A DNA stretch of 64,000 nucleotides from Nocardiopsis eucommiae (lineage in GTDB: Bacteria; Actinomycetota; Actinomycetes; Streptosporangiales; Streptosporangiaceae). This document shows, in pieces, positions 48,623-64,000 of the stretch. The stretch spans positions 1,302,001 to 1,366,000 of the forward strand of contig CP074402.1 in NCBI GenBank assembly GCA_018388625.1. Reading direction: 5' to 3'. Position 1 is the first letter of the stretch. Each line of letters begins with the position of its first letter. The position numbers and the translations under genes were made by a program. A model generated the notes under the pieces. It was given only the letters and a program-made list of their open reading frames with translations, ran no database searches and had not been told where the DNA came from.

Positions 48623-50172
48623 TCAGACCCTGTCGTGTTCTCCCGTCTCCTCCGTCTCGCCCTCGGCCACGGGGCGGGCCGGGTGGGCGGGACGCAGCCG
48701 TCGCCACACCGTCCAGACCAGCCCGAGCAGCAGCAGGCCGTACAGGGCGATGGTGATGGGGCTGCTGATGAGCGTGAGCGGGTCGTTGCCGGAGTTGGCC
48801 ATGGCGTCACGCAGGGAGTACTCGGCCAGCGGGCCCAGGATGACCGCGATGAGGATCGGGGCCAGCGGAACACCGGTGCGTCGCATGACGAAGGCCAGCG
48901 CCCCCAGGACGCACATGATGGCCAGGTCGGTCCTGCTGGCGCCGGTGGCGTAGACACCGAGGCTGGCGAAGACGGTGATCCCGGCGTAGAGGTAGGACTG
49001 CGGCAGCAACAGCAGCTTGGCCCACAGCGGGGCGAAGGGCAGGTTGATGATCAGCAGGACCACCGTGGCCAGCAGGAGCCCGGCCAGCAGAGCCCAGACG
49101 ACGTCGCCGTTGCGCTCGAACAGCAGGGGGCCCGGCTGCATCCCGTACTGCTGGAAGGCGGCCAGCAGGACGGCGGCGGTCGCCGAGGTCGGCAGGCCCA
49201 GGGACAGCAGTGCCCCCATGGCGCTCCCCGCCGTGGCGTTTCCCGCGGCCTCGGGCGCGGCCACGCCCTGGATGGCGCCCTTGCCGAACTGCGGCTTCCC
49301 GCGCCGCCTGTCCAGTTGGCGTTCGGTGCTGTACGCGAGGAAGGTGGGGACCTCGGCGCCGCCGGCGGGGATGATGCCGAAGGGCACCCCGATGCCGGCG
49401 CCGCGCAGCCAGGCGGGCAGCGCCGCCCGGAACTCCCGCCCCGACAGCCAGGGCCGTCCCTTCGAGGAGACGAGTTCGTGCGCGCCTCGGTGGCCCACCC
49501 GTCCGGCGGCGTGGAGCACCTCGCCAACGGCGAGCACGGCCACGGTGATCACCACGATGCTGATGCCGTCGAAGAGCGCGGGGACCTCGAAGGTGAAGCG
49601 TGCCGTGCCGGTGGACTGGTCGGTGCCCACCAGGGCCAGGGCCAGGCCGATCGCCAGAGCGGCCAGGCCCTTGAGGGGGACTCGGAGACGATCGCCGAGA
49701 TGGCGACGAAGGCGAACAACGCCAGCGCGAAGTACTCGCCGGGGCCGAACCGGGTCGCCAGGTCGGCCATGGTCGGAGCGAAGAACACCACCAGGACGGT
49801 GGCGAGGAGGCCGCCGAGGAACGCGCCGATGGCGGACGTGGCCAGGGCCTGCGGGGCCCGCCCCGCGCGGGCCATGGCGTGCCCCTCGAAGGTGGTGGCG
49901 ATCGCGGTGCTGTTGCCCGGGGTGTTCATCAGGATGCCCGCGGTGGAGTCCCCGAAGAGGCCACCGAAGTAGACGCCGCTGAACAGGATCAGGGCCGCCA
50001 GCGGGTCCAGCGTGAAGGTCATCGGCAGGAGCAGCGCCACCGCCATGGCCGATCCCAGGCCGGGCAGCACGCCCACCGCGGTGCCCAGGAACGCGCCGAG
50101 CGTGATCCACACCAGGTTCATCGGGGTGAGGACGTCCCCGAACCCGCCGAGCAGGTGGGTCAGCTGGTCCAT
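48623..50172 (-). CDS. tctA: Tripartite tricarboxylate transporter, large membrane subunit TctA (frameshift near 49678)
   Basis: ATG at 50172 ([20 protein letters not shown]) starts just after the tctB stop. About 516 residues and 12 helices. TctA hallmarks: [53 protein letters not shown], then [21 protein letters not shown] and [33 protein letters not shown]. One C is missing near 49678. It is the ion-coupled channel part of the citrate or tricarballylate importer. As written, no stop separates it from tctB; one missing G near 50187 explains this. Confidence 0.92.
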
Positions 50173-50173
50173 G

Positions 50174-50717
50174 TCACCAACCCCCAGCAGACCGGAGGGG
50201 AGGTTGAGGTCGAGCAGGCCGCTGAAGACGATCTGGATGGTCGCCGCCATGACGAAGCCGACGGTGAGGTTGCGCGTCAGGTTGCGGTTTCCCAACCCGG
50301 TGGCCACGGCCGCGAACATCACGGTGGCCATGACGAGCCAGCCGACGACGTCGATCAGCGCGCTGAAGGCGACGAGGCCGAGCATCACCAGGGCCACGGC
50401 GCGCCAGTTGGTGCGCTCCTGGGTGGCCAGGGCCCGACGGCGCTCGGGGGTGCGCCGCAGTGCCGCGGCGATCAGGAGCGTGCCGATGACCGTCGCGAGC
50501 GCGGCGACGAACCAGCCGAAGCCCTGCGGGCCCAGCGGGCCTCCGTCACCGATGACGTCCATCCCGAGGTTGCCCAGGGTCAGGACGACGGCCATGAGCA
50601 GCAGGACGGCGCCGATGAGCAGTTCGCCGCGCCCCTCCCAGAAGGAGAGGGGGCGGGCGGGTCCGGCTTCCTCCGGGGGTCGGCGGCTGGGGACTGGTCG
50701 AGCGTGGTGTCGGACAT
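50174..50717 (-). CDS. tctB: Tripartite tricarboxylate transporter, small membrane subunit TctB (frameshifts near 50682 and 50187)
   Basis: ATG at 50717 starts MSDTTLDQSPAAD; adding one C near 50682 joins it to LSFWEGRGELLIGAVLLLMAVVLTLGNLG, the first helix. Four helices in all, ending TIQIVFSGLLDLNLPSGLLG. About 181 residues. With one G added to the run near 50187 the end becomes GGW-stop, two bases before the tctA ATG, the normal tctBA junction. Thus the apparent fusion to TctA is probably artificial. Confidence 0.87.
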
Positions 50718-50742
50718 GTTCTCCTCCGTGGGGTCCTGGTCC

Positions 50743-51752
50743 TCAGGCCTCGTCGATGAGGCCGAGGTCGATCATGAGCGCGCGGATGCGGGTCTCCTCC
50801 TCGGAGATGAAGCCGCCGAACTCCTCCGGCCCCGCCCAGCTGGGGTCCCACCGGTTGCGGTCGATCGCCTCCTGCCAGGACGGCGCCTGGTACATCTCCT
50901 CGGTGATCTCCAGCAGTTCGGACCGCTCCTCCTCGGAGATGCCGGGGGCCGCGACGACGCCGCGCCAGTTGACCAGGTTCACGGAGGGGTAGCCGAGCTC
51001 GGCGGCGGTGGGTACGTCAACCCCTTCGAGTCGCTCGGGGGCGACCACGGCCAGGGCGCGCAGGCGTTCGCCCTCGATGAGGTCACGGAAGTCGTTGAAC
51101 CCGCTCACGCCGATCCGCACCGTGCCGTGGGCGTCCGAGAGCAGGGACAGGGTGAGCTCGCCGCCGCCCGCGTGCGGGGTGTAGTGCAGCCCGGCAGGGT
51201 CGAGTTCGGCCGCCTCAGCCAGCTGACCGGCGACCAGGTGGTCGGGGAGCCCGCCGACCCTCCGCCGACGGGGATGTCGGGATCCTCCCGCCAGTCCTCG
51301 AGGAAGTCGTCGAGCGTCTCCCACGGTGAGTCGGCGGGCACCGCGATGACCTGGAAGTCGTCGGTCAGCCGGGCGATCGGGGTCACGTCACTGAGCCGGG
51401 CGGAGGAGCCGCCCATCTCCACGCCGCCGACCATCGCCGCTCCGGTGATCATCACCGTGGTGGGGTCGGCCTCCAACCGCCGCAACTGGCCCAGGCCGAT
51501 GGTGCCTCCAGCGCCGGGGACGTTCACCACCTGGACGCTGTTGACGATCGACTCGGTCCTGGTCGCCTGCTGGAACTCACGGGCGGCCAGGTCCCAGCCG
51601 CCCCCGGCAGCGGCCGGGGCGATCACGGTCAGAGCGGAACGGGCTCGTGAGCCGTCCTCCTGGCCCACCGCGTCCTGGACCGCGAAGAAGCCGGTCGTCA
51701 GTACCAGGACCGCGCCCACGGCGGGGGCGATGAGTCCCCTGTCGCCGATCAT
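50743..51752 (-). CDS. tctC: Tripartite tricarboxylate transporter, substrate-binding protein TctC (frameshift near 51257)
   Basis: Starts MIGDRGLIAPAVGAVLVLTTGFFAVQDAV, a signal anchor or uncleaved signal. The TctC/BugE pattern is LTVIAPAAAGGGWDLAAREFQQ, VQVVNVPGAGGTIGLGQL, VGGGSAGSPDHLVAGQL after one G is restored near 51257, and GTVRIGVSGFNDFRDLIEGERLRALAVVAPERLEGVDVPTAAELGYPSVNLVNWRGVVAAPG. About 336 residues. It captures the tricarboxylate outside the membrane. Lies between a stress-protein gene and tctB. Confidence 0.9.
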
Positions 51753-51783
51753 GAGCCCTCCCTCCCCGTTGTCGCCACGCCGG

Positions 51784-52169
51784 TCATGACTTCACCGCGA
51801 GGACCGGGCACCGGGCCTCCAGGATCAGGCGCTGGGCCGTGCTGCCCATGAGGAGCTTGCCGACCGCGGAGCGGCGTCGGACGCCGATGACCAGGAGGTT
51901 CGCTTCGACGTCTTCGGTCAGGTCCAGGAGCGCCGCCGCCGCGTCGGAGTCGGTCAGGTGCACCGGACGTGCCCGGACGCCCTCCCCCGTGCCCGCTCGG
52001 CCAGGTCTCGTAGCGCCGCCCCGTCCACCGCGTGGGTATCGGCCGGGGCGTCGTTCGAGACGGCGTTGGCGATCACCAGCTCCCACTCCTGGAGCGCGGC
52101 CTGGCGGACCGCGGCCTCGAACGCGGCCTCGGCGGAGTCCGCCGGGGCGTGGGCCAGTACAACCGTCAT
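51784..52169 (-). CDS. Universal stress protein, single domain (frameshift near 51983)
   Basis: MTVVLAHAPADSAEAAFEAAVRQAALQEWELVIANAV is a Usp N-terminus; after one base is restored near 51983 the chain continues VHLTDSDAAAALLDLTEDVEANLLVIGVRRRSAVGKLLMGSTAQRLILEARCPVLAVKS with the G-S-T-A nucleotide-binding end. 128 residues. It is the first gene of the tct operon. Small UspA proteins of this kind often accompany TctC transporters in actinomycetes. Confidence 0.85.
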
Positions 52170-52210
52170 CCTGTTCCTCCTCGAACACTGCCGTGACCAG
52201 CGTCACAGCC

Positions 52211-52225
52211 TGTAGTGTATAGGCT
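52211..52225. promoter_or_regulatory. Second GntR operator, in front of the usp-tctCBA operon
   Basis: TGTAGTGTATAGGCT differs from the site at 45781-45795 in only two of 15 bases. It lies 41 bases upstream of the first ATG (52169) of the leftward transport operon, in the least GC-rich part of this area. Confidence 0.6.
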
Positions 52226-52615
52226 GTATCATTTGTCGCATCTCGTCAACTCCCTGGAAAACGTGCGGAAACCGTCGTGGAACGTCACGGTGCGCCCTGG
52301 TCGCTCGTAGGTGTTGTGGCGCCGAAGGCCACGGCCGTCGTGGACCCGGCGCGACCGTCGGTCGCACCGGCGCATCTGCGGCCGGGGGCTCGCGCGTGCC
52401 CTTCCGGATCGGGCGCGGGACACGGCGCGGGACGAAGGTCGCGTGATCCGGGGACGGACGTCGCCCGAACGCGAGGGGAGTGCTGGCGAGAATGGAGGGG
52501 CCCCGTGCACGGTGGCGATGCTTTCTCGCGGGCTCCCGCAGGAGCCGGAGGCCGACGCGGACGCTCTTCCAGGGCGCGGTGGCGGATGCGCGCGAATCGG
52601 AGGAAGGAGTTCTCG
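52226..52615. other. Gene-free stretch before the stress island
   Basis: No gene supported. It contains one DosR-box-like sequence at 52451-52464. A good ribosome site (AGGAAGGAG) ends the stretch. Confidence 0.45.
52451..52464. promoter_or_regulatory. DosR-box-like palindrome (one mismatch)
   Basis: GGGAC-GGAC-GTCGC, one change from GGGAC-N4-GTCCC, 152 bases before the stress-protein ATG at 52616. Confidence 0.35.
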
Positions 52616-53548
52616 ATGAGTACGCGTGACGACGGGCGGGGCCAACCTCGGAACCGCGAGAACGCCATCGTCGTGGGGGTGGACGATTCATCCGCCAGTC
52701 AGTCCGCTCTGGACTGGGCAGCGGGCGAAGCCCAGAGCCGTGGCCTGGGACTGCTGGTTCTCCACTCGGTCAACGTTCCCGCCCTACCGGGTTCCGTGAA
52801 GGGAAGCAGCCCGAAACGGGATCTCGCTGCCGTGGCCAGGCAACTTCTTCGGGCGGCGACGGAGCGGGTGGCCACCCGGTTCGGACCCGGCCTGGATGTG
52901 CGCGCCGAGACCTCCGACCTGGCTCCGACGCAGGCGTTGGTCTCCGCCTCCCGCACGGCCGCGATGGTCGTCGTGGGTTCGCGGGGCTCGAACGGAGCCG
53001 CACCACTCTCCTTGGGGTCGGTGAGTACGCGGGTCAGTGCGCACGCCTTCTCGCCCGTCGCGGTCGTCCCCGCCTCAGCGGCCTCCGGCACGGAAGGCCA
53101 TGGTGGCGGGCGACCCGTGGTGGTGGGCGTGGACGGATCGTCCGGAGCGGAGGTCGCCCTGCGGTTCGCACTCGAGGAGGCCGCGCGTACGGAGACGGGC
53201 CTCGTGGTGGTGCACGCCTGGGAGGCGCCGGTGCTCATCGGGGGCTCCACGTGGGACCCCGCTCCTCACACAGCCGTCCTCGAAGCCCAGGCAACGGGCG
53301 CTCAGGAGAGTGTGCGGGCGATGGTGCGGGAGGCTCGGGGGCCCCACACCGAGCAGGTCCCCTGCAGTGTCGAGGTGGTCCGTGACCAACCCGCCCACGC
53401 GTTGTTGGTCCGAGGGGAGCGGGCGGGCCTCATCGTCGTGGGTACCCGAGGACGCGGTGGCTTCGCCGGACTGCTCTTGGGGTCGGTCAGCCGGACGGTC
53501 CTGCACCATGCGACGGTACCGGTCGTGGTCGCTCGGGCTCCCGCCTGA
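52616..53548 (+). CDS. Universal stress protein, two Usp domains
   Basis: Intact 310-residue protein; ATG at 52616 follows AGGAAGGAG. Domain 1: AIVVGVDDSSASQSALDWAAGEA to MVVVGSRGSNGAAPLSLGSVSTRVSAHAFSPVAVV. Domain 2: VVVGVDGSSGAEVALRFALEEA to LIVVGTRGRGGFAGLLLGSVSRTVLHHATVPVVVA. Both keep the ATP-binding G-x2-G-x9-G-S pattern. Tandem Usp proteins like this belong to the DosR (dormancy, low oxygen) regulon in mycobacteria. Confidence 0.93.
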   Translation: MSTRDDGRGQPRNRENAIVVGVDDSSASQSALDWAAGEAQSRGLGLLVLHSVNVPALPGSVKGSSPKRDLAAVARQLLRAATERVATRFGPGLDVRAETSDLAPTQALVSASRTAAMVVVGSRGSNGAAPLSLGSVSTRVSAHAFSPVAVVPASAASGTEGHGGGRPVVVGVDGSSGAEVALRFALEEAARTETGLVVVHAWEAPVLIGGSTWDPAPHTAVLEAQATGAQESVRAMVREARGPHTEQVPCSVEVVRDQPAHALLVRGERAGLIVVGTRGRGGFAGLLLGSVSRTVLHHATVPVVVARAPA

Positions 53549-53666
53549 TCCCCGGCGCGGAGCGTGAGGACCCCTGGAACCGGTTCTCGCCTCGACTTCC
53601 TCGTCGGTCACGGCGAGGGGCGAGACGCCCGGATCCGACACCGTGTCGGACAGTGCCCCTGGCCTC

Positions 53667-54521
53667 TCAGGTTCTGGGCCTGTGCACCACCATGACGGGA
53701 CGGATCGACCGGTGCATGACACCGCTGGCCACACCGCCCAACGCCAGGTGGGCGAACCCGTGCTCTCCACGGGCGCCGACTACGACCAGGCACGTGTCGC
53801 GGGGGTGCGCCAGCAGGGAGCTCACCGGATGCTGGCGCCGGACCTCCCGCACGACCTCGACACTCGGTACCCGGGCCACCAGGGGGTCCAGGACCGACTC
53901 CAGATTCTCGTGCCGCCACCGCCGCAGTTCGTCCTCCTCGGTGGACCCCGCTGGGACCAGGGATTCCGGAGCGGTCCAGGCCCAGACCGCCCGGACGCGA
54001 GCGCGGCCGGACGCGGCGTGCTCCAGCGCCACCTCGACCGCGTGTGCGGAACCGGGTGATCCGTCCACTCCGACGACGACGTCGCGGGCCTCCTCGGGTA
54101 CCGGCTCGGGGCGCACCAGCACGACGGGAACCGCCGCGTGCGCCGCCACCTGATCGGCCACCGTACCCAGCCACTCTCCGGGCAGTGAGCTCAGTCCATG
54201 GGTGCCGAGGACGACCAGGGAACTCGACTCGGCCCCGCGCAGGATCTCCCTGGCGGGCGATCCCCCGGGGAGCACCTCTCCGGTGACGTCGACCTCCGGG
54301 GCGACCTCCCTGATGAGATCCGACGTCACCCACACGGCCTTGCGCGCCTCCTCCTCCAGAAGACTGGCGGGGCGTACCACGTGGCGGTGGAACGCGTCGG
54401 GGTCGTAGACGCAGAGGACGGTGAGTCGGGCACCGCTCCTCCGTGCCTCGGCGATGGCCCAGTCGGCGGCGGTCCTGGCGGCCTTGGAGCCGTCCGTCCC
54501 GACGAGGATGTTCCCAGTCAT
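53667..54521 (-). CDS. Universal stress protein, two Usp domains
   Basis: Intact 284-residue protein; ATG at 54521 follows GGAGAGGAG. Domain 1 starts NILVGTDGSKAARTAADWAIAEARRSGARLTVLCVY and ends SLVVLGTHGLSSLPGEWLGTVADQVAAHAAVPVVLV. Domain 2 starts DVVVGVDGSPGSAHAVEVALEHA and ends LVVVGARGEHGFAHLALGGVASGVMHRSIRPVMVVH. The second nucleotide motif is slightly altered (GGVAS). Divergent from the alcohol dehydrogenase gene with a DosR-box-like palindrome in the gap. Confidence 0.93.
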   Translation of the reverse strand: MTGNILVGTDGSKAARTAADWAIAEARRSGARLTVLCVYDPDAFHRHVVRPASLLEEEARKAVWVTSDLIREVAPEVDVTGEVLPGGSPAREILRGAESSSLVVLGTHGLSSLPGEWLGTVADQVAAHAAVPVVLVRPEPVPEEARDVVVGVDGSPGSAHAVEVALEHAASGRARVRAVWAWTAPESLVPAGSTEEDELRRWRHENLESVLDPLVARVPSVEVVREVRRQHPVSSLLAHPRDTCLVVVGARGEHGFAHLALGGVASGVMHRSIRPVMVVHRPRT

Positions 54522-54616
54522 GTGGTCTCCTCTCCTCATCTCGAGTGTCACTCCCGTGCCACGGAGTCGAACACGAACGAAGGTTCCGGTGACCAGGCCA
54601 CAGGGCCTGCGTGCAC

Positions 54617-54630
54617 GGGACCGTCGTCCC
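54617..54630. promoter_or_regulatory. DosR-box-like palindrome GGGAC-N4-GTCCC
   Basis: GGGAC-CGTC-GTCCC lies between the divergent stress-protein gene (start 54521) and alcohol dehydrogenase gene (start 54667). It has the same half-sites and 4-base spacing as the mycobacterial DosR box core. Confidence 0.55.
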
Positions 54631-54666
54631 TTGGGCCCACCGGCGCTCGTATGGTGCGCTTGAGGG

Positions 54667-55676
54667 GTGGAACGCCTGACACAGGCCTGGGCCGTGACGG
54701 CCCCGGGCGCGATCGAGACCGAACCCCTGGAACGGGTGAGCCGACGGATTCCCGCACCGGGAGATCGTGAGCTGTTGATCGAGCTCCTGGCCTGCGCGGT
54801 CTGCCGAACGGACCTGCATCTGGCGGAAGGCGACCTCCCGCCCCGGCACCCGGGGACGGTGCCCGGACACGAGGTCGTCGGCCGGGTCGAGGCTCGTGGC
54901 CCAGGAGCGAGCCTGTTCGCACGCGGGGACAGGGTCGGTGTCGCCTGGTTGGCCTCCACGTGCGGGGTCTGCGCCTACTGCCGCCGTGGGAGCGAGAACC
55001 TGTGTCCGTACTCCACCTACACGGGGTGGGACCGTGACGGCGGTTTCGCGCGGTTCCTGACCGCTGACGAGAGGTACGTGCACCCCTCCCTGACACCCTC
55101 TCCGACATCGAGGCGGCGCCGCTCCTCTGTGCCGGTGTGATCGGGTACAGGGCACTGAAGCGCGCGGAGCTGCCCGCTCAGGGGGTCCTGGGCATCTACG
55201 GCTTCGGCGCGTCCGCTCATCTCACGGCGCAGGTGGCCCTGGCCGGAGGCGCTCGGGTTCACGTCATGACACGGTCCCGAGAAGCCCGTGCTCTGGCCCT
55301 GGAACTCGGATGTCGTTCGGCCACGGGAGCCTACGACGACCCACCGGAACGGCTGGACTCGGCGATTCTCTTTGCTCCTGTCGGTGACCTCGTACCCGCC
55401 GCGCTCAGGGCGTTGGACCGGGGCGGGACACTCGCCGTCGCCGGGATCCACCTGACCGACATCCCCCGGCTCGACTACCAGAGGGACCTGTTCCAGGAAC
55501 GGACACTGCGCAGCGTCACGGCCAACACCCGGGCGGACGCCCGGGAGTTCCTGGACTTCGCCGCGCGGAACCCGTTGACCGTGGCCACGACGCCCTACCC
55601 GTTGGACGAGGCGGACCGGGCACTCGCCGACCTCGCCGCCGACCGGGTCAGGGGCGCCGCGGTGCTGCTGCCCTGA
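54667..55676 (+). CDS. Zinc-dependent alcohol dehydrogenase (frameshift near 55095)
   Basis: GTG at 54667. The zinc-ligand Cys is in [33 protein letters not shown], the structural zinc Cys cluster in [15 protein letters not shown], and the nucleotide fold [20 protein letters not shown] follows after one C is added near 55095. 336 residues. The family oxidises alcohols or reduces aldehydes with NAD(P). This branch (AdhA-like, [11 protein letters not shown] type) is often placed among DosR-type stress genes. Confidence 0.88.
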
Positions 55677-55758
55677 GACGGGACGCCCTGGCTACGAGAC
55701 CGGGGAGCGGGCGCCGGCGTCCGCGATCAGAGAGCGACGACCAGGGGGGACGGAGCCC

Positions 55759-56514
55759 ATGCGTGACACGGGTGTGCCGTGGGACCGCCTACGCTCCGTG
55801 GTCCTCGACACGGACGGCGTCATCACCGACACCGCGTCGGTGCACGCGCAGGCATGGAAGGAGGTGTTCGACGCCTACCTCCTGGACCGGTCGGTCTCCG
55901 AGGGGCCTCCGTTCCGTCCCTTCGACTCCCGCTGGGACTACCTTCTCCATGTCGACGGTCGCCCGCGCGAGGAGGGGGTACGCGGTTTCCTCGCGTCACG
56001 GGGACTCCACCTGCCCGAGGAGGCCGGTCCGGGCGAGCGCGACGCGGTGACGGTGGCGGAGCTGGCCGCCCGCAAGGACCGCCGCTTCCTCGACCTCGTG
56101 CGCCGAAGGGGGGTCCGAGCCTTCGAGGGAACCGTCGCTTTCGTACGCGCGCTGCGCTCGTGGGGTGTTCCGGTCGCGGCCGTCTCGGCCAGCCGCAACT
56201 GCGCGAGGGTGTTGCGCGCGGCCCGGGTGGACGGCCTCTTCGACGTCAGGGTGGACGGTGTGGAGGCTGCCCGGCTGGGCCTGTCCCCGAAGCCCGACCC
56301 GGCACTCTTCCTGGAGGCGGTCCGGCGGATGGGCCGTGATCCGCGTGAGTCCGCGGTCGTGGAGGACGCGGTGGTCGGCGTGGAAGCGGGAGTGCGGGGC
56401 GGATTCGGTCTGGTGATCGGGGTCGACCGCGGCGGAGTTCGCGAGGAGATGGTGGCGGGCGGGGCGCACGTGGTGGTGTCCGACCTGGCCGAACTACTGC
56501 CCTTGAGCGGGTGA
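55759..56514 (+). CDS. pgmB: Beta-phosphoglucomutase family HAD hydrolase
   Basis: Intact 251-residue protein starting at ATG 55759 with GGGGGGACGGAG upstream. HAD motifs: VVLDTDGVITDTASVHAQAWKEVFD with nucleophile Asp, VSASRNCARVL, and KPDPALFLEAVRRMGRDPRESAVVEDAVVGVEAGVRGGF. RVDGVEAARLGLSPKPDP is typical of the mycobacterial-type enzyme encoded next to a GH65 protein. It would turn beta-glucose 1-phosphate into glucose 6-phosphate; the GH65 gene at 60542-62908 is the likely partner. Confidence 0.88.
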   Translation: MRDTGVPWDRLRSVVLDTDGVITDTASVHAQAWKEVFDAYLLDRSVSEGPPFRPFDSRWDYLLHVDGRPREEGVRGFLASRGLHLPEEAGPGERDAVTVAELAARKDRRFLDLVRRRGVRAFEGTVAFVRALRSWGVPVAAVSASRNCARVLRAARVDGLFDVRVDGVEAARLGLSPKPDPALFLEAVRRMGRDPRESAVVEDAVVGVEAGVRGGFGLVIGVDRGGVREEMVAGGAHVVVSDLAELLPLSG

Positions 56515-56598
56515 GCGGGCGCGGGCGCCGCGACCGGACGCGTACCGAGCCGAAGTCACGCGGGGCAGACCCGGTCCGAGCCTGCCCCTGGACGGACG

Positions 56599-57497
56599 TC
56601 AAGGCCGGGGCGTCCGCACCACCGCGACCGGGCAGCGGCTGTGCGAGATCATGCTCCTGCTGACCGACCCCAGGAGCAACGACGCGAAGCCCCCGCGACC
56701 GCGCGATCCCACGACCAGGAGGTCGCTGTCACCCGAGGCGGTCCGGAGCTCCTCGGTCGGGTGCCCCACCCTGACCACTTCCTCGACCCGGACCCGGGGC
56801 CACCGGTCCCTGTCGCCCGCGATGGACTCCGAGAGCATCCTGTGGGTCTCCTGGACCGCCGAAGCGATCAGGCTGTCGACGATCCCGGGATCGGGCGGTT
56901 CCTCGACCCCGCCGAACCGTTCCCAGGACACCCCCTCGGACACGGACATCGCGCACAGCTCCGCGCCGCGGCGTCGGCCGCCTCGAACGCCCACTCGGAC
57001 GCCGTCCGCGCGTTCTCCGAACCGTCAACGCCGACGGTCACGCGATTCCTGAGAGGAAGGGTCTCCACGTCGGGTACGGCCACGACCGGGCAGGAGGACG
57101 AGAGCAGCAAAGCCATGGTGAGCGAACCGGGGATCACGAGATCCACGGTCGAGAAGTGGTGCGTGCCGACCACGAGACTGTGCGCCCGCTGGCTCTCGGC
57201 CAGCAGGACCGGTTCCGGGTCGCCGGTGACGTGGGCCGCCTCCACCGCGAGCGCGGGCGCGCGCTCCAGCGCACGCCGACGTGCGTCGTCGACGATGCGC
57301 CGTGCGTACTCCTCGGCGTCGAAGCCGCCGGGAAGGTCGCGCGGTGTCGAATGGTAGAGCGGCCAGTCGAAGGCGTAGACGACGCGGAGTCTGAGGCCGC
57401 GCCGGTGGGCGTCGTCCGCTGCCCAGTCGACAGCTCGCTCACTGGCTGGTGACCCGTTGACCGCCGCCACGACGGGCGCGTGGGTCCCTCCCGCCAT
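56599..57497 (-). CDS. Universal stress protein, two Usp domains (frameshift near 56958)
   Basis: ATG at 57497. Domain 1: PVVAAVNGSPASERAVDWAADDAHRRGLRLRVVYAFDWPLYH to SLVVGTHHFSTVDLVIPGSLTMALLLSSSCPVVAV. Domain 2: NRVTVGVDGSENARTASEWAFEAADA, one base restored near 56958, then LLVVGSRGRGGFASLLLGSVSRSMISHSRCPVAVV. 299 residues. Only the second domain keeps the full nucleotide motif, so domain 1 may be regulatory. Confidence 0.9.
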
Positions 57498-57561
57498 TCC
57501 TGCCTCCCAGATCGAACGGGAACTCCCTACACCACGCTAGGAGCGCGGGGGCTCCCCTCCA

Positions 57562-57575
57562 GAGACGGACGTCCC
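57562..57575. promoter_or_regulatory. DosR-box-like palindrome (one mismatch)
   Basis: GAGAC-GGAC-GTCCC lies 65 bases upstream of the leftward stress-protein start at 57497, one change from GGGAC-N4-GTCCC. Confidence 0.4.
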
Positions 57576-57606
57576 GGCGCGGTGGCCCGTGCGTCCGTAC
57601 CAGGGG

Positions 57607-58278
57607 TCACGTACGCCGGTCGGGCAGAGGACGAACGCCCAGACGCGCCGCGTGTGCGGCGGCCTGGGAGCGGCGCCGCATGTCCAGCTTGGCCAGGACG
57701 CTGGAGACGTGGTTCTTGACGGTCTTCTCCGCCAGGAACATCTGTTCCCCGATCTGCCGGTTGGTCAGGCCCTCACCGATGAGTTCGAACACGCGGCGCT
57801 CCTTCTCGGAGAATCCGCTCAGGGGATCGTCTGCCTCGGCTCCCTCACGCAGCCGACGCAACACGAGGGTGGTGCTGTGGGGATCGAGCAGGGACTCCCC
57901 GGAGGCCACCGTGCGGATGGCGTCGACCAGTTCGGAGTTGTGGATCTGTTTGAGGACGTAGCCCGCGGCACCCGCCATCACCGAACCGTAGAGGGCCTCG
58001 TCGTCGGAGTACGACGTGAGGATCAGACACGCCAACCGGGGGAGTCGGGCCCGCAGGTCCCGGCAGACCTCCACCCCGTCCCCGTCGGGTAGGCGCACGT
58101 CCAGGACGGCGACGTCGGGTCGCGCCGCGGGTATGCGTCCCAGAGCCTCCGAAGCCGTGGCGGCCTCACCCACCACCGTCATGTCCTCCTCACCCTGGAG
58201 GAGGGCCTGGAGTCCCAGTCTGACCACGTCGTGGTCGTCGACGAGAAAGACACGGATAGCTCCACCGGAACCGGACAT
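57607..58278 (-). CDS. DosR/DevR-like LuxR-type response regulator
   Basis: ATG at 58278; upstream codons lack a ribosome site. 223 residues. Receiver: IRVFLVDDHDVVRLGLQALLQGEEDMTVVGEA, phosphoacceptor Asp in DVAVLDVRLPDGDGVEVCRDLR, Thr in LILTSYSDDEAL and Lys in GYVLKQI. The HTH is FSEKERRVFELIGEGLTNRQIGEQMFLAEKTVKNHVSSVLAKLDMRRRSQAA, very close to mycobacterial DosR, including the K-N-H-V-S recognition helix. No sensor kinase lies beside it. It is the natural candidate for the palindromes found before the stress genes on both sides. Confidence 0.92.
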   Translation of the reverse strand: MSGSGGAIRVFLVDDHDVVRLGLQALLQGEEDMTVVGEAATASEALGRIPAARPDVAVLDVRLPDGDGVEVCRDLRARLPRLACLILTSYSDDEALYGSVMAGAAGYVLKQIHNSELVDAIRTVASGESLLDPHSTTLVLRRLREGAEADDPLSGFSEKERRVFELIGEGLTNRQIGEQMFLAEKTVKNHVSSVLAKLDMRRRSQAAAHAARLGVRPLPDRRT

Positions 58279-58440
58279 CAGCCGACACTCTCCCACCCGT
58301 GACGGGCTCACACGCCTGCTTGGCCGTATCCCACCACGGGACCGGGTCGCGTCACGTCTTCACTGCTCATACCCATGTCGATGGCGCGGAATCCGTTGAC
58401 CTGCGGCTTCGTGTCGCGTGCGGGCACCGGCGGGTGCACT

Positions 58441-59117
58441 TCAGTGGAGCGCGCGACCTCCCACCCTCCGCCCGCTGACGTCCCGGGGCGTCACCCGCAC
58501 GTAGAGGTCGTGTTCGCCCCCGCCCAGGGACGCAGGGGCGCTCTCGCGGAGGCGAGCCGTCTCCGCTTCCTCCGTCACCGGTTCGGCGCGGCCGACGACG
58601 AGCACGCTCCACCCCTCGCTGGTCGCTGCGTCGACGCGGTCGACCTCGAAGGCGACCTCGTCGGGGATGTTCCCCGCGATCAGTCCGTGGACCGCGGTCC
58701 TGAAGACGATGGCGCCGTCACGGACCAGGAAGTTCACCGGAAGGATGACTGGGGCGGGGGCCGAGCCCGACCTCAACCCGATGCGTCCCACACCCCCGGG
58801 CCGATCAGGCGAATGCACCGTGAAGGCGGGAGAGAGGTCGTGGTCGCCACCGGCGCGGCGGTGGTCGCGGTCCCGGGTGGCAGATCGGTGTCCGCGCCCA
58901 ACAGGTGGTCCTGGGTGGTGTCCAGTGCCCCGGCGAGGTGGTCCAGTGTCGGCCGGGTCATCCGGGAGGCGTGCTCCTCGAGGTAGGCCACGTATCCGGG
59001 GTCCATGCCAGCGAGACGGGCGACCTCCTCCCTCGTCAATCCCAGCTCTCTGCGGCGCGTCGCCGCCCGGCGGCCGAGATCGCTGCCTGATCCGTCCGTG
59101 TCGGCCTCCTGGCTCAT
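58441..59117 (-). CDS. XRE helix-turn-helix fused to pyridoxamine 5'-phosphate oxidase-like domain (frameshift near 58797)
   Basis: ATG at 59117 follows GGGAGGGAG. Residues 10-75 are an XRE-type HTH (RRAATRRRELGLTREEVARLAGMDPGYVAYLEEHASRMTRPTLDHLAGALD). After one G is restored near 58797 the chain continues GGVGRIGLRSGSAPAPVILPVNFLVRDGAIVFRTAVHG, a split-barrel flavin-binding domain. 225 residues. Such fusions occur in actinomycetes among DosR-type stress genes; the flavin or F420 domain could sense redox state for the DNA-binding part. That function is inference. Confidence 0.82.
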
Positions 59118-59293
59118 GACCACTCCCTCCCTGGCCGTTGACGGCCCTTCGCCCGGGCCCTGCCCTCGGGGTCCTCACCGTTTGCGAGGTGCGTGTACAC
59201 GAGGCGTTCGGCCCGACGCGTGCGCCGGAGGTCCCGGTCCGCTTTCGGTATCACCCTGGTACGACGCCGAGTGGCTGGTGACAGGGGCGGCTC

Positions 59294-59307
59294 GGGACGC
59301 CGGTCCC
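59294..59307. promoter_or_regulatory. DosR-box-like palindrome GGGAC-N4-GTCCC
   Basis: GGGAC-GCCG-GTCCC, perfect half-sites, 123 bases before the stress-protein ATG at 59430. Confidence 0.5.
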
Positions 59308-59429
59308 CGGGCCCGGCGACCTCCGTCCCGGGCCCCGAAGCGGGGCGAGGGAGAAGAATGGGAGGGAGGCTCAGCCACGGAGACGGTCACGCGCCTCGTC
59401 GGGAAGCGTGGTGACGGAACGGGGGGACC

Positions 59430-60463
59430 ATGATCACCGGCCCTGAGAGTCGAGGAGCGGACGCGGCGGCCGCCGCGTCCACGGATGCCGAGGACGACGG
59501 GATCCGTCACGAACCGCGCCACGACGGACCGGTCGTGGTGGGCGTGGACGGTTCGGCGCCGAGCCTGGAGGCCCTCCGCTGGGCGACCCGGGAGGCCGAC
59601 GCCAGAGGTGTGGGCCTGGTGGTCCTGCACGCTGTGTGGACCCCCGACGTCCCCACGCCCCCGGGCTTCACCATCAGCACGCTGCGGCGGGAACTCCACG
59701 GGTGGGGGAACAGCTGCTGCGCGAAGCCGTCGACAACGTCGCGTCGCCGGTGCGTCCCGGACTGGCGGTGCGTACCGAGCTCTCGTCCTCCGAGCCGTCG
59801 CGTGCCCTGATCGACGCCTCGAAGGGCGCCGCTCTCGTGGTCGTGGGCGCCCGTGGCCGAGGGAGCGCCTTCGCGGTCCTGCTGGGCTCCGTCAGCGCAC
59901 GTGTCAGCGCCCACGCCCACTGCCCCGTGGCCGTGGTGCCCGAGCGGCACGGGGGCGTGGAGACACCACCGGAGGAGCGGGCCGAACGCGGCGCGGACGC
60001 GGACACACGACCGGCGGCGGGGGACGGCCGGGGGCGCGTGGTGGTCGGTCTGGACGGATCCTCCGGTTCGATGGTCGCCCTGCGCTTCGCGCTGGAGGAG
60101 GCGGCCCGGCCCGGACGCGAAGTGGTGGCGCTGTACGCGCTGGAGCTGCCGATGCCCATCGACGACACCACACTGGACCCGGAGATCGACGCCGCGGCAC
60201 AGGAAAGCTGGAAGGCGACCGCCAGGGCCCGCATCCTCGCGTGGGTGGACGAAGCACGCCGTGCGAACACCGAGAACGTCCCCGTGAACGTGGAAGTGGT
60301 CACCGGACGGGCGGTCGACGCGCTCCTTAGCCGGACCGACGCGGCCGTCATCGTCGTGGGATCACGAGGGCGGAGTCGGATCACCGGGCTCCTGCTCGGA
60401 TCCGTCAGCCAATCCGTCCTGCAGAACTCCCGGGTGCCGGTCGTGGTCGTGCCGAACCCCTGA
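59430..60463 (+). CDS. Universal stress protein, two Usp domains (frameshift near 59703)
   Basis: ATG at 59430. Domain 1: PVVVGVDGSAPSLEALRWATREADARGVGLVVLHAVW, one base restored near 59703, then LVVVGARGRGSAFAVLLGSVSARVSAHAHCPVAVV. Domain 2: RVVVGLDGSSGSMVALRFALEEAARPGREVVALYALELP to VIVVGSRGRSRITGLLLGSVSQSVLQNSRVPVVVV. 344 residues including a polar N-terminal extension of 30 residues. It is most similar in layout to the protein at 52616-53548; the two may be old duplicates. Confidence 0.9.
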
Positions 60464-60541
60464 GAGGTACGGGGGACCGGTGGTGCTCCGGGCCGTCGGA
60501 GAGCGCGCCACGGACGACCGCGCCACCTTACGGAAGTACGC

Positions 60542-62908
60542 TCACGCCAACGGAAGCAGACAGGCCGTTCCGGGACGGACACTGACCAGGTGGACCCCCA
60601 CCCGCACGGTGACCGGCGGTCCGCCCGAAGCGGGGACGGAGACACGGACGCGGTCCCGGAACACCTCGACCCGTACCCGCCCCTGCCGGAGGCAGCGCAG
60701 GTCGAAGGAGAGCCTGTCCAGGTCGGCGGGCAGCCGCAGGCTCAGGTGCAGGACGCCCTCCCGAACGGCGAGTCCGGTGTAGCACCGGGTCAGGATGTCG
60801 ACCGTGCCCGCCATCGCCCCCATGTGGATGCCCTCGGCTGTGCTCCCGTCCGGAGCGCCCTCGACGTCCGTGCCCAGCGCATCGCGGAAGAACTCCCAGG
60901 AGGCCTCGCGATCGGTTCGGGAGAGTACCCAGGCGTGCGCCACCGAGCTGAGGCTGGACCCGTGGGCGGTGCGTGCGAGGTAGTGGTCGATCGTGCGAGG
61001 GACGAGCTCAGGGTCGCGGGCGTGTCCGAGGCGTTCCAGGATGTCGGTGATCTCCTCCTCGGAGAGGAGGAGGAACAGCATGAGGACGTCGGCCTGTTTG
61101 GCGGCCCGGTAGTGGTTGCAGTCGTCCCCCTCGGCCTCCAGCGCGCGGTCCAGACGCCGGACGCCCTGGTACGCCTCCCAGTCGAGCTCGTCCAGGTCCT
61201 CGTAGTGGGCGAACTGACTGATGACTCCCTCATGGAAGGGGACGTGCAACCCGCGTGAGACCGACTCGAACCGAGCGATCTCGTCGGCTTCGAGGCCGAG
61301 GGACTCCTGAAGCTCCTCGCGGAACGGGCCGGGCAGCGTTCGGAGGATGTCGAGAGCGCGCAGGAGAACCCACACGGTCATGACGTTGGTGTAGGCGTTG
61401 TCGTCCAGGCCGGGAACCGCCCTCCCCGGATAACCGTCGTGGTACTCGTCGGGACCCATGACGCCACGGATCACGAAGCGGTCCAGTTCCTCGTCGAAGA
61501 CAGCCATGTCCGCGAAGGCACGTGCGACCTCCAGCAGCAACTCGGCGCCGAACTCGCACAGGAAGGCGACATCGCCGGTCACCCGGTAGTGCTGCCAGAC
61601 GTTGTAGGCCACGGCGAGGCCGACGTGCCTCTGCAGGTGGGAGTTGTCGGGAAGCCAGTGACCGGATCGCGGGTTCAGGTGGAGTTCCTGTGTCTCCTCT
61701 CGACCGTCGCTCGCGCTCTGCCAGGGAAAGAGCGCGCCCCGCAGCCCCGCCGCGCGGGCGCTCGCACGCGCTCGCGGGAGCCTTCGCCACCGGTACCTCA
61801 GCAGGCCACGAGCGGTCTGCGGGAACCGCAGGTTGAGGAACGGGAGGACGAACACCTCGTCCCAGAACACGTGGCCCCGGTACGCCTCGCCGTGCAGCCC
61901 CCTCGCGGGGACCCCGACATCGAGGTCGGGCGTGTGCGGGGACAGGGTCTGGAGCAGGTGGAAGAGGTGGAGGTTGAGGAGACGCTGGTCCCGTTCCGAG
62001 TCCACCTCCACGGAGCAGGTCTCCCACAGGTGCCGCCACGCGGCCTCGTGGCGACGGGCCAGCTCGGAGAAGTCCCCGGCCCGGTCCAGAGCGTGGAGGG
62101 CCGCGTCGAGGCAGTCGCCGACGGCGCGGTCGCGGGACGTGTACAGGGCCACGGTCTTCTCCACCGTGGTCGGCTCGCCCGTGCGCACGTTCAGGGTGAG
62201 GTCCGTGGCCGCCCAGTCATCCGAGGTCGGCGTCGCGCAGGTCGTGGCACGTCCGTCCCGCGTCACCAGGGTCCGGGAGGCGAGCACGATCTCTACCCCC
62301 GATGTCAGGGTCCGGCAGCGGAGCCACGCGGTCCCCGTGTTCTCGGACCCCGCGCCCAGCGGGGCGAGGTGCCTCCCGTTCAGGTCCCGGTAGCGGGCCA
62401 CCCCACGGTTGGACACGGTGCCGTCCAGGGCCGAGCGCACGACCACGGTCCCGGCCCAGTTCTCCGGGGTCAGCGTGGTCCGCAGGGTCGCCAGGTGGGG
62501 GTCGTCCATCGACACCAGCCGACACTGGGTCACGTGGGTCCTCCTGCCCGCGTGCACCGTGTGGAAGGTACGGGTCAGTGTTCCGCGACGCATGTCCAGT
62601 TCGGTGCGTTGGGGGAGGCCCGCAGCGGGTTCTCCGAACCAGTCGCCGTCCTCCGGGCGAAACGTCAAGGGCAGCCAGTTCGGCACGTTGACCAGGTCCT
62701 CGTTGTCCACACGGCGGTCGGCGACCGTGGAAACGGCGCGGTCGTAGCAGCCCGCCACATAGGTCCCCGGGTAACACGTCGAACCGGCGCCCGCCTCCGG
62801 GGGCGCGCCACGCGTGGCGAAGTAACCGTTGCCCAAGGTGCACAGGGTCTCCCGCACCAGAGCCCCCTGCGGATCCGGCCCCTCGTATTCCAGTGTCCAG
62901 GGGTCCAC
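60542..62908 (-). CDS. Glycoside hydrolase family 65 protein (maltose/trehalose phosphorylase type)
   Basis: GTG at 62908 follows GGGAGG. Intact 788-residue protein. N-terminal beta-sandwich with ETLCTLGNGYFATRGAPPEA; the (alpha/alpha)6 barrel has HVFWDEVFVLPFLNLRFPQTARGLLRYRWRRL, ALFPWQSASDGREETQELHLNP and the catalytic acid Glu in GVMGPDEYHDG. The closing segment TEGIHMGAMAGTVDILTRCYTGLAV is GH65-like. Family members split a disaccharide with phosphate to give beta-glucose 1-phosphate, the substrate of the beta-phosphoglucomutase at 55759-56514. Which disaccharide cannot be read. Confidence 0.93.
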   Translation of the reverse strand: MDPWTLEYEGPDPQGALVRETLCTLGNGYFATRGAPPEAGAGSTCYPGTYVAGCYDRAVSTVADRRVDNEDLVNVPNWLPLTFRPEDGDWFGEPAAGLPQRTELDMRRGTLTRTFHTVHAGRRTHVTQCRLVSMDDPHLATLRTTLTPENWAGTVVVRSALDGTVSNRGVARYRDLNGRHLAPLGAGSENTGTAWLRCRTLTSGVEIVLASRTLVTRDGRATTCATPTSDDWAATDLTLNVRTGEPTTVEKTVALYTSRDRAVGDCLDAALHALDRAGDFSELARRHEAAWRHLWETCSVEVDSERDQRLLNLHLFHLLQTLSPHTPDLDVGVPARGLHGEAYRGHVFWDEVFVLPFLNLRFPQTARGLLRYRWRRLPRARASARAAGLRGALFPWQSASDGREETQELHLNPRSGHWLPDNSHLQRHVGLAVAYNVWQHYRVTGDVAFLCEFGAELLLEVARAFADMAVFDEELDRFVIRGVMGPDEYHDGYPGRAVPGLDDNAYTNVMTVWVLLRALDILRTLPGPFREELQESLGLEADEIARFESVSRGLHVPFHEGVISQFAHYEDLDELDWEAYQGVRRLDRALEAEGDDCNHYRAAKQADVLMLFLLLSEEEITDILERLGHARDPELVPRTIDHYLARTAHGSSLSSVAHAWVLSRTDREASWEFFRDALGTDVEGAPDGSTAEGIHMGAMAGTVDILTRCYTGLAVREGVLHLSLRLPADLDRLSFDLRCLRQGRVRVEVFRDRVRVSVPASGGPPVTVRVGVHLVSVRPGTACLLPLA

Positions 62909-62973
62909 GAGGTCACCTCCCGCGTATGGTCCGCGCGACCAGGAACGCCGCCCCGACCGTGGGCGCTTGAGGG

Positions 62974-63393
62974 CTACTCCTCCGGAGACTCACGGGAGAT
63001 GGGCACGGTGCGGCTGCTCCCGGGCTCCCGCGAGAGGCCCACGCGCACTTCCAGGAGGCCCTGGTCGTAGGACGCGGTGACGTCCTCCCAGTCGGCTTCG
63101 GCCGGCAGCACGAGCGTACGGCTGAAGGTGCCGTAGTGGAACTCCGTGTACAGCGGTGCGGTCGTGCCCTCAGTACGCACGCACTCGATCGTGATCGTGC
63201 CGCGCTCGACGGTCACCTTGAGGTCGCGCTGCGGGTCCACGCCGGGTGCCTCCACTCGAACGACGTAGAGGTGATCGTTGACCGAGGTCTCCACCCGCAG
63301 GTACGACGACGTACGTGATGACGGGGACGGAGGATCCACGTCCCACGGATCCGGGAAGCGTGTCAGCCCCTCTCCACGGGAGACCGCGTTCAT
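62974..63393 (-). CDS. Hsp20/alpha-crystallin family small heat-shock protein
   Basis: Intact 139-residue protein starting at ATG 63393 with GGAGG upstream. The crystallin domain runs RVETSVNDHLYVVRVEAPGVDPQRDLKVTVERGTITIECVRTE, EFHYGTFSRTLVLPAEADWEDVTASYDQGLLEVRVGLS, and the C-terminal anchor is V-P-I-S. The Y-G-T-F-S-R and Y-D-Q-G-L-L-E-V-R-V motifs are standard. HspX, a prime DosR target in mycobacteria, is of this family. It holds unfolded proteins during stress. Confidence 0.93.
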   Translation of the reverse strand: MNAVSRGEGLTRFPDPWDVDPPSPSSRTSSYLRVETSVNDHLYVVRVEAPGVDPQRDLKVTVERGTITIECVRTEGTTAPLYTEFHYGTFSRTLVLPAEADWEDVTASYDQGLLEVRVGLSREPGSSRTVPISRESPEE

Positions 63394-63802
63394 GTCGCAC
63401 CTCCTCTGTCAGGGCCCGGCGGGCTCCTCGGGCCGGTCGGTCCCGACCGCTGATCTCCCATTCAACGCTCCCACCACGTTTCCGTCAGGGGGCGAAGGCT
63501 GTGAGCGACCGGGACCTTCGTCGTGACGCGGGCCTGCGTTCCGGACGCCGGGGGAGGGCGCCCGGCGCTGGTGTGGACGGCGACGTCACGTTCCGGAGCG
63601 CCACGGGCGTCGGGGTGTCTCCCAGCCCAGGCGTTCGTCGACGGTGCGCGGGTGCGCCGCGCGGCACACCGGGCGGAGTCCCGCATAGGGGACGACGGTC
63701 CCGGGGAGAGGGACACAGGGCCCGTCGGCGCGGACGTTGGGCTGGGCGGGGCGCGCGTGTTCGGGCACACACTGGACACCAGGGCAGATAAGGGGGTGGC
63801 CG
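63394..63802. other. Gene-free stretch before the last stress-protein gene
   Basis: No gene supported. It holds a short inverted repeat GGTCGG-TC-CCGACC near 63437 and the DosR-box-like palindrome at 63689-63702. The open frames here are short and Pro/Arg-rich shadows. Confidence 0.45.
63689..63702. promoter_or_regulatory. DosR-box-like palindrome GGGAC-N4-GTCCC
   Basis: GGGAC-GACG-GTCCC, perfect half-sites, 101 bases before the stress-protein ATG at 63803. Confidence 0.5.
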
Positions 63803-64000
63803 ATGAGCGGGGACGTCCTCGTCGGAACCGACGGATCACGGGCGGCGCTGGCAGCGGCGGTGTGGGCGAGTGAGGAGGCGCGCGACCGGGGAGCCAGGGC
63901 CGTCGTCGTGTGTGTCTTTGACCCGGGCTGGCCGACGGCCCGGGCCACGGAACGCCTCAGACAGGAGGCCGAGAGCGTGGTGGAGCGGACGAGGAACCGC
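63803..64000 (+). CDS. Universal stress protein, 3' truncated by window end
   Basis: ATG at 63803 follows AAGGGGGTGG. The visible 66 residues begin MSGDVLVGTDGSRAALAAAVWASEEARDRG, then ARAVVVCVFDPGWP and a charged helix (RATERLRQEAESVVERTRNR). This is the first half of a Usp domain with the GTDGS start, similar to the protein at 53667-54521. The rest lies outside the window. Confidence 0.85.
   Translation, partial: MSGDVLVGTDGSRAALAAAVWASEEARDRGARAVVVCVFDPGWPTARATERLRQEAESVVERTRNR

Follow-up and report, generated by a model that had tools for sequence, protein, structure and literature searches.

Which protein recognises the short palindromes lying between the stress genes of a Nocardiopsis eucommiae gene cluster, and is the single palindrome the unit that it recognises? 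We addressed this question in a window of 64,000 nucleotides (contig CP074402.1, positions 1302001-1366000, of a 6.1-Mb genome), in which genes for tandem universal stress proteins (usp) surround a gene for a response regulator of the DosR/DevR type. Coordinates up to 64,000 are window positions; larger ones, and those in kb, are contig positions. The predicted explanation that we favour, at a probability of roughly 0.85, is that the palindromes are binding sites of the regulator encoded at 57607-58311, and that paired boxes activate the stress genes flanking them.

A first-pass annotation of the window had reported the palindrome GGGAC-N4-GTCCC at five places, and these were recovered as described. 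Exact copies start at 54617, 59294 and 63689, with no other in the window, and copies with one mismatch start at 52451 and 57562. The called genes place all five in intergenic DNA, and each precedes a tandem usp gene, with Usp domains identified by Pfam, at a distance of 65-152 bases from the start: 152 for usp1, 96 for usp2, 65 for usp3, 123 for usp4 and 101 for usp5. Gene starts were taken from a home-made codon-usage caller together with an open reading frame listing; the intergenic labels depend on this caller, and frameshifts make it overlook coding sequence. The five sites stand, but as a list they were incomplete, since seven further one-mismatch sites are present, five within 52451-63702 (56797, 58203, 59316, 61979 and 62246) and two just outside it (52429 and 63710). 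Four of these seven lie in coding sequence, and the remaining three (52429, 59316 and 63710) are partner boxes, each 21-22 bp from a listed site.

What is unusual about these sites is their position, not their count, and a lone box is weak evidence by itself. The whole window holds 17 sites with at most one mismatch against 15.3 expected from shuffles, which is ordinary; by place, five (none exact) fall in bases 1-50000 and 12 (three exact) in bases 50001-64000. All five usp promoters carry such a site, whether 200 or 300 bases before the start are considered, while each of 39 permuted half-sites used as controls matches at most one of the five. None of 3000 dinucleotide shuffles attained three exact or five near sites in these promoters.

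Pairing distinguishes the sites further. Each of the five intergenic regions holds two boxes in tandem, four pairs being spaced by 22 bp and one by 21 bp (Table 1), and the earlier treatment of the single palindrome as the unit is corrected accordingly: two boxes in tandem, spaced by about 22 bp, probably make up the functional unit. The test in the window allowed spacings of 21-23 bp and up to three mismatches per pair, with mismatches counted against GGGMC-N4-GKCCC and summed over both boxes. Among 1000 shuffles of the five regions, 920 contained no paired region, 75 contained one and five contained two, and never were more than two of the five paired. Two of the pairs are also singular on the scale of the genome: at a spacing of 22 bp only pair 4 has no more than one mismatch, and at 21 bp only pair 5 is perfect.

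The same arrangement recurs around dosR relatives in other genomes, as seen in two non-random samples: 39 loci (753 kb), mostly high-scoring, picked from matches in 182 of 200 genomes, and the best 80 of at least 595 confirmed loci (1.44 Mb). In the 39-locus set, GGGAC-N4-GTCCC occurs 18 times in intergenic and three times in coding DNA, compared with at most four intergenic occurrences for any of 39 control half-sites and 0-2 for other spacers (0-15). In the best-80 set the corresponding counts are 21 and six, with control half-sites reaching no more than seven and other spacers (0-12) giving 0-3. The form GGGMC-N4-GKCCC has 98 intergenic sites in the best-80 set, against 6-18 for the other spacers of 0-12. 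A promoter tally was limited to genes preceded by roughly 60 bases of called intergenic DNA, which left 46 of the 51 usp genes and 68 of the 78 dosR genes; in it, this form precedes 15 of the 46 usp genes, 16 of the 68 dosR genes and 64 of 741 others.

A second box also tends to follow at the same distance. For the 39 and 98 sites kept from the two locus sets, with no duplicates removed between sets, a second box with at most two mismatches is found 30 times at 22 bp, 13 times at 21 bp and 12 times at 23 bp, and no more than ten times at any other distance from 14 to 60 bp. Intergenic pairs with at most two mismatches in total number 46 at 22 bp, 14 at 21 bp and 16 at 23 bp, and no other distance between 14 and 40 bp has more than 12. 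The closest congener (locus L118) carries a perfect 21-bp pair before the same pyridoxamine-oxidase/dosR unit, the counterpart of 59294/59316, and Nocardiopsis sp. ATB16-24 (locus L161) has two intergenic pairs with two mismatches in its dosR neighbourhood.

The regulator gene amid the sites, previously called DosR-like, indeed encodes a relative of Mycobacterium tuberculosis DevR. Its product matches DevR over its length with 249 bits (E 2.5e-73), the next solved protein, VraR, scoring 154 bits, and this difference, together with the concentration of the N4 box between genes in both locus sets and the perfect pair of the closest congener, supports the reading of the palindromes as DosR-type boxes. 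DevR and the window regulator share 118 of 206 aligned residues, the stretch FLAEKTVKN being the same in both, and the NarL-type architecture is confirmed by Pfam (Response_reg 3e-25, GerE 3.3e-16). The phosphoacceptor D54 of DevR and its residues K179, K182 and N183 correspond to D71, K196, K199 and N200 here, which are invariant in ten of ten orthologues; the available text of PMC5999986 gives K179, K182 and N183 as core DNA-binding residues. In a tree, VraR is a distant outgroup and DevR falls among the actinobacterial sequences, though with a long branch for DevR and with 20 of the 62 internal branches left open; the window regulator, two congeneric genomes and ATB16-24 form a clade with 100/100 support. 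The nearest named match among those listed is likewise ATB16-24, at 82% in the best segment.

No kinase gene adjoins the window dosR, the nearest HisKA_3 match on the contig lying about 35 kb away at 1324450. Such adjacency is not universal in the wider samples, where a DevS-like kinase occurs in the fetched flank of 24 of 39 and 44 of 80 loci. The genome does encode two kinases of GAF-GAF-HisKA_3 composition, at 5782 kb and 3186 kb; both match the GAF-A domains of DosT and DevS (141 and 161 bits), and one histidine aligned across DevS, DosT and both kinases, which we take to be the heme ligand, is kept. The DevS/DosT-like gene at 5782554-5784482 has no GerE-type regulator match nearby, and its product is a possible partner of the window regulator. 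The 3186-kb kinase gene adjoins a DosR paralogue at 3188 kb and is preceded, about 150 bp before its called start, by a 22-bp pair with three mismatches (3186506-3186541). Comparable pairs, 23 bp apart and with three mismatches, precede kinase genes of the same type in the congeneric loci L141 (7871) and L142 (12323). The initial candidate for the DevRS pair, at 5152-5162 kb, was rejected, its regulator being only 34% identical.

DevS/DosT-like kinases of known systems sense low oxygen or related gases. On the reading that we favour, one or both of the remote kinases would phosphorylate the window regulator when oxygen falls. Boxes 21-22 bp apart are separated by about two helical turns, such that two regulator dimers can occupy neighbouring positions on the same face of the helix. 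Most likely the phosphorylated regulator would bind the stronger box and recruit another dimer to its weaker partner, whereupon flanking stress genes, on one side or both, would be switched on, in the first place the five tandem usp genes. Four of the five regions separate divergent genes, and the predicted targets therefore probably extend to genes on the other side, namely those for the alcohol dehydrogenase, Hsp20 and the short usp, and the pyridoxamine-oxidase gene upstream of dosR. Because pair 4 also faces this last gene, autoregulation is suggested, whereby the promoter at 59294/59316 would feed back on dosR. More tentatively, and at less than even odds, DosR-family regulators of many actinobacteria may recognise, as their unit, the GGGMC-N4-GKCCC pair at 22 +/- 1 bp, with, in this Nocardiopsis lineage, a kinase-less dosR inside a usp cluster driven remotely by two separate DevS/DosT-like gas-sensing kinases, the 3186-kb one having a degenerate pair of its own before it, as in two congeneric loci.

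How far might such a regulon reach in this genome? Five usp loci elsewhere have no pair with at most three mismatches in the 450 bases before the first Usp match, the best pairs having four to six mismatches (only the first usp gene of each locus was considered); the boxes thus mark the dosR neighbourhood and not usp genes generally. The enrichment before nitroreductase genes suggested in the first-pass annotation did not emerge from the three of eight nitroreductase matches looked at, those at 907 and 1007 kb having no intergenic box within one mismatch and that at 1388 kb having a one-mismatch site that resembles background. A genome scan for 22-bp pairs with at most two mismatches returned eight places, three of them in the cluster. 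The other five were not retained as targets: three are inside called genes, 5590339 is hairpin-like, and 1208407 is an intergenic pair with no adjacent stress gene recognised by eye, no family search having been run there. Scans at 21 and 23 bp returned six places each, of which 1365689 is in the cluster, and context was viewed for eight of the 11 others; a pair at 1370692, in a poorly called stretch about 4 kb past the final usp match, was not taken as a target, and one at 5861212 is hairpin-like. Exact single palindromes also occur three times at 83-84-base spacings at 339245-339425 and three times within 0.7 kb at 3870324-3871032; these copies are probably parts of longer repeats rather than regulator sites.

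Several observations weigh against the window regulator acting through these boxes. Exact single boxes are not rare: the genome has 43, of which 21 fall within called genes and 22 in intergenic DNA. The single-box scan was hence rejected as proof of a regulon. The backwards pattern gives eight sites genome-wide, yet arithmetic from base composition expects about 33 exact sites, for which reason the contrast of 43 with eight was left unused. For pairs, the backwards control exceeds the pattern, at 162 vs 61 (22 bp, at most three mismatches), 17 vs 6 (23 bp) and 29 vs 6 (21 bp), and therefore placement alone carries the evidence. Weak partner boxes, with two mismatches each, occur at 54595 and 57584. 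The arrangement is not universal, since L119, a further congeneric locus that carries an orthologue, lacks any intergenic pair within three mismatches. A consensus scan found no sigma-70 promoter (-10/-35), a result taken as uninformative because the genome is so GC-rich. Finally, the genome encodes two DosR-like paralogues of the window regulator, at 5853 kb (62% identical) and at 3188 kb (65-66%, in two pieces), either of which could bind instead.

This last point gives the best-surviving alternative, namely that the palindromes are real regulator sites whose main binder is a paralogue (5853454 or 3188483-3189120), or that several of the three regulators share them. It partly overlaps with our explanation and, as a separate account, appears unlikely but not negligible. 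Four congeners have a kinase-linked dosR; a 23-bp pair precedes that gene in L139, L140 and L142 (0, 3 and 3 mismatches) and not in L141, which favours a role for the paralogues. Against this, it is the window dosR that the cluster surrounds, and the best 22-bp pair of the genome precedes the gene next upstream, where the closest congener likewise has a 21-bp pair; in addition, the assembly shows the 3188-kb paralogue in two pieces. It is very improbable that the palindromes are instead hairpin elements, such as terminators or RNA structures. Each exact box is indeed a 5-bp inverted repeat with a four-base loop, but four of the five sites lie between divergent genes, a terminator scan found no terminator-like site at any of the five, and hairpins would need neither a second box at 22 bp nor the exact GGGMC half-site of other genomes. 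Chance, by which a favourable set was picked from the many palindromes of a GC-rich genome, could account for the ordinary near-site count and the low pair counts, but has very little left to recommend it given the promoter-position and pairing tests on the five usp regions, and is already contradicted by the recurrence of the signal in the two sets of 39 and 80 loci from other genomes.

The composition of the cluster is given in Table 1. The frame giving the pyridoxamine-oxidase match runs from 59178, and the gene caller breaks the gene into two frames; the N-terminal part of the product appears helix-turn-helix-like by eye. Many genes between 45806 and 60463 are similarly split into overlapping or neighbouring frames (aconitase, a tripartite transporter, usp0, usp3, usp4, alcohol dehydrogenase and pyridoxamine oxidase), which, in an assembly of two contigs that is 84.39% complete, suggests indel errors in the assembly and not decay of the cluster. 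Also inside the cluster, at 55759-56514 and 60542-62908, are genes for a HAD-type hydrolase, presumably beta-phosphoglucomutase-like, and a glycosyl hydrolase family 65 protein. Relatives of the former occur in 12 of 39 and three of 80 dosR loci and of the latter in six of 39 and four of 80, hinting that sugar-phosphate metabolism is tied to the regulon.

Table 1. Box pairs and genes of the usp/dosR cluster, in window coordinates.
Feature	Coordinates	Strand	Description	Basis
Pair 1	52429..52464		52429-52442 + 52451-52464; 22 bp, 2 mismatches; between short usp (-) and usp1 (+)	
Pair 2	54595..54630		weak 54595-54608 + exact 54617-54630; 22 bp, 2 mismatches; between usp2 (-) and alcohol dehydrogenase (+)	
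Pair 3	57562..57597		57562-57575 + weak 57584-57597; 22 bp, 3 mismatches; before usp3 (-)	
Pair 4	59294..59329		exact 59294-59307 + 59316-59329; 22 bp, 1 mismatch; between pyridoxamine-oxidase/dosR (-) and usp4 (+)	
Pair 5	63689..63723		exact 63689-63702 + 63710-63723; 21 bp, 0 mismatches; between hsp20 (-) and usp5 (+)	
usp0	51784..52169	-	single Usp domain, split in two frames	Pfam search
usp1	52616..53548	+	tandem Usp protein	Pfam search and start placement
usp2	53667..54521	-	tandem Usp protein	Pfam search and start placement
Alcohol dehydrogenase	54667..55676	+	zinc-type, split in two frames	Pfam ADH_N, ADH_zinc_N
usp3	56599..57497	-	tandem Usp protein, split in two frames	Pfam search
dosR	57607..58311	-	DosR/DevR-type response regulator (receiver and GerE/LuxR HTH), no adjacent kinase	Pfam, DevR identity
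Pyridoxamine oxidase	58441..59117	-	pyridoxamine 5'-phosphate oxidase-like, same strand as dosR and upstream of it	Pfam
usp4	59430..60463	+	tandem Usp protein, split in two frames	domain search and start placement
hsp20	62974..63393	-	Hsp20/alpha-crystallin	Pfam
usp5	63803..64000	+	tandem Usp protein, start only, runs past window end	domain search and start placement

The targets of DosR in M. tuberculosis include usp and hsp20-type genes, as they would here. The half-site and N4 spacing equal those of the EM1 oligonucleotide GGGAC-TAAA-GTCCC in the available text of PMC5999986, whereas the edges of N4 are G or C in the five listed boxes and T and A there. Closely spaced primary and secondary boxes are a second likeness, and the cooperative binding described in M. 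tuberculosis is predicted here. In the accessible portions of these papers, boxes in the target promoters that were studied lie close together and are bound cooperatively (PMC3029386), and two or more neighbouring sites are proposed as the minimum, with the site nearest the promoter overlapping the -35 region (PMC5360333). The motif is described in the same partial form of the literature as conserved in mycobacteria (PMC3388012), with consensus forms printed in PMC6448022. A published distance between paired boxes was looked for in these sources and not found, although it may be in print, and the literature search on DevR together with Nocardiopsis, within what it covered, surfaced only a mycobacterial proteomics study. 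The heme sensor kinases DevS and DosT have their likeness in the two genome-encoded kinases that match their GAF-A domains, with the difference that neither is near the window dosR, one lying beside a DosR paralogue and the other having no GerE match nearby.

These results bring a Nocardiopsis relative within the range of the DevR/OsdR dormancy system and supply a concrete list of sites, and the pairing rule sharpens target prediction, placing three of eight 22-bp pairs (at most two mismatches) in the cluster, against three of 43 exact single boxes. They also pose a question of wiring in a soil bacterium, namely which of two remote kinases would drive a regulator that has no kinase of its own.

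By its sequence features the cluster can be assigned to the DevR/OsdR kind of regulon, with Streptomyces OsdR as the closest published system. For OsdR-OsdK of Streptomyces coelicolor (SCO0204-SCO0203), the available part of PMC5069765 gives eight predicted sites in the vicinity of osdR, including its own promoter, which precede usp, alcohol dehydrogenase and pyridoxamine-oxidase genes. In both systems, then, a DevR-type regulator is clustered with these three kinds of gene, and the OsdR consensus AGGGCCGATCGGCCCT shares the form GGGNC-N4-GNCCC with the boxes described here. The differences, as far as that text goes, are that the exact boxes of the window have A as the fourth base of the half-site (GGGAC), that no kinase gene is adjacent, and that the OsdR neighbourhood contains nitrate reductase and nitroreductase genes, whereas here a nitroreductase target was not found in three of eight matches and nitrate reductase was not searched for. 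Put simply, the cluster appears to be a soil bacterium's form of the switch for oxygen starvation already described in mycobacteria and Streptomyces.

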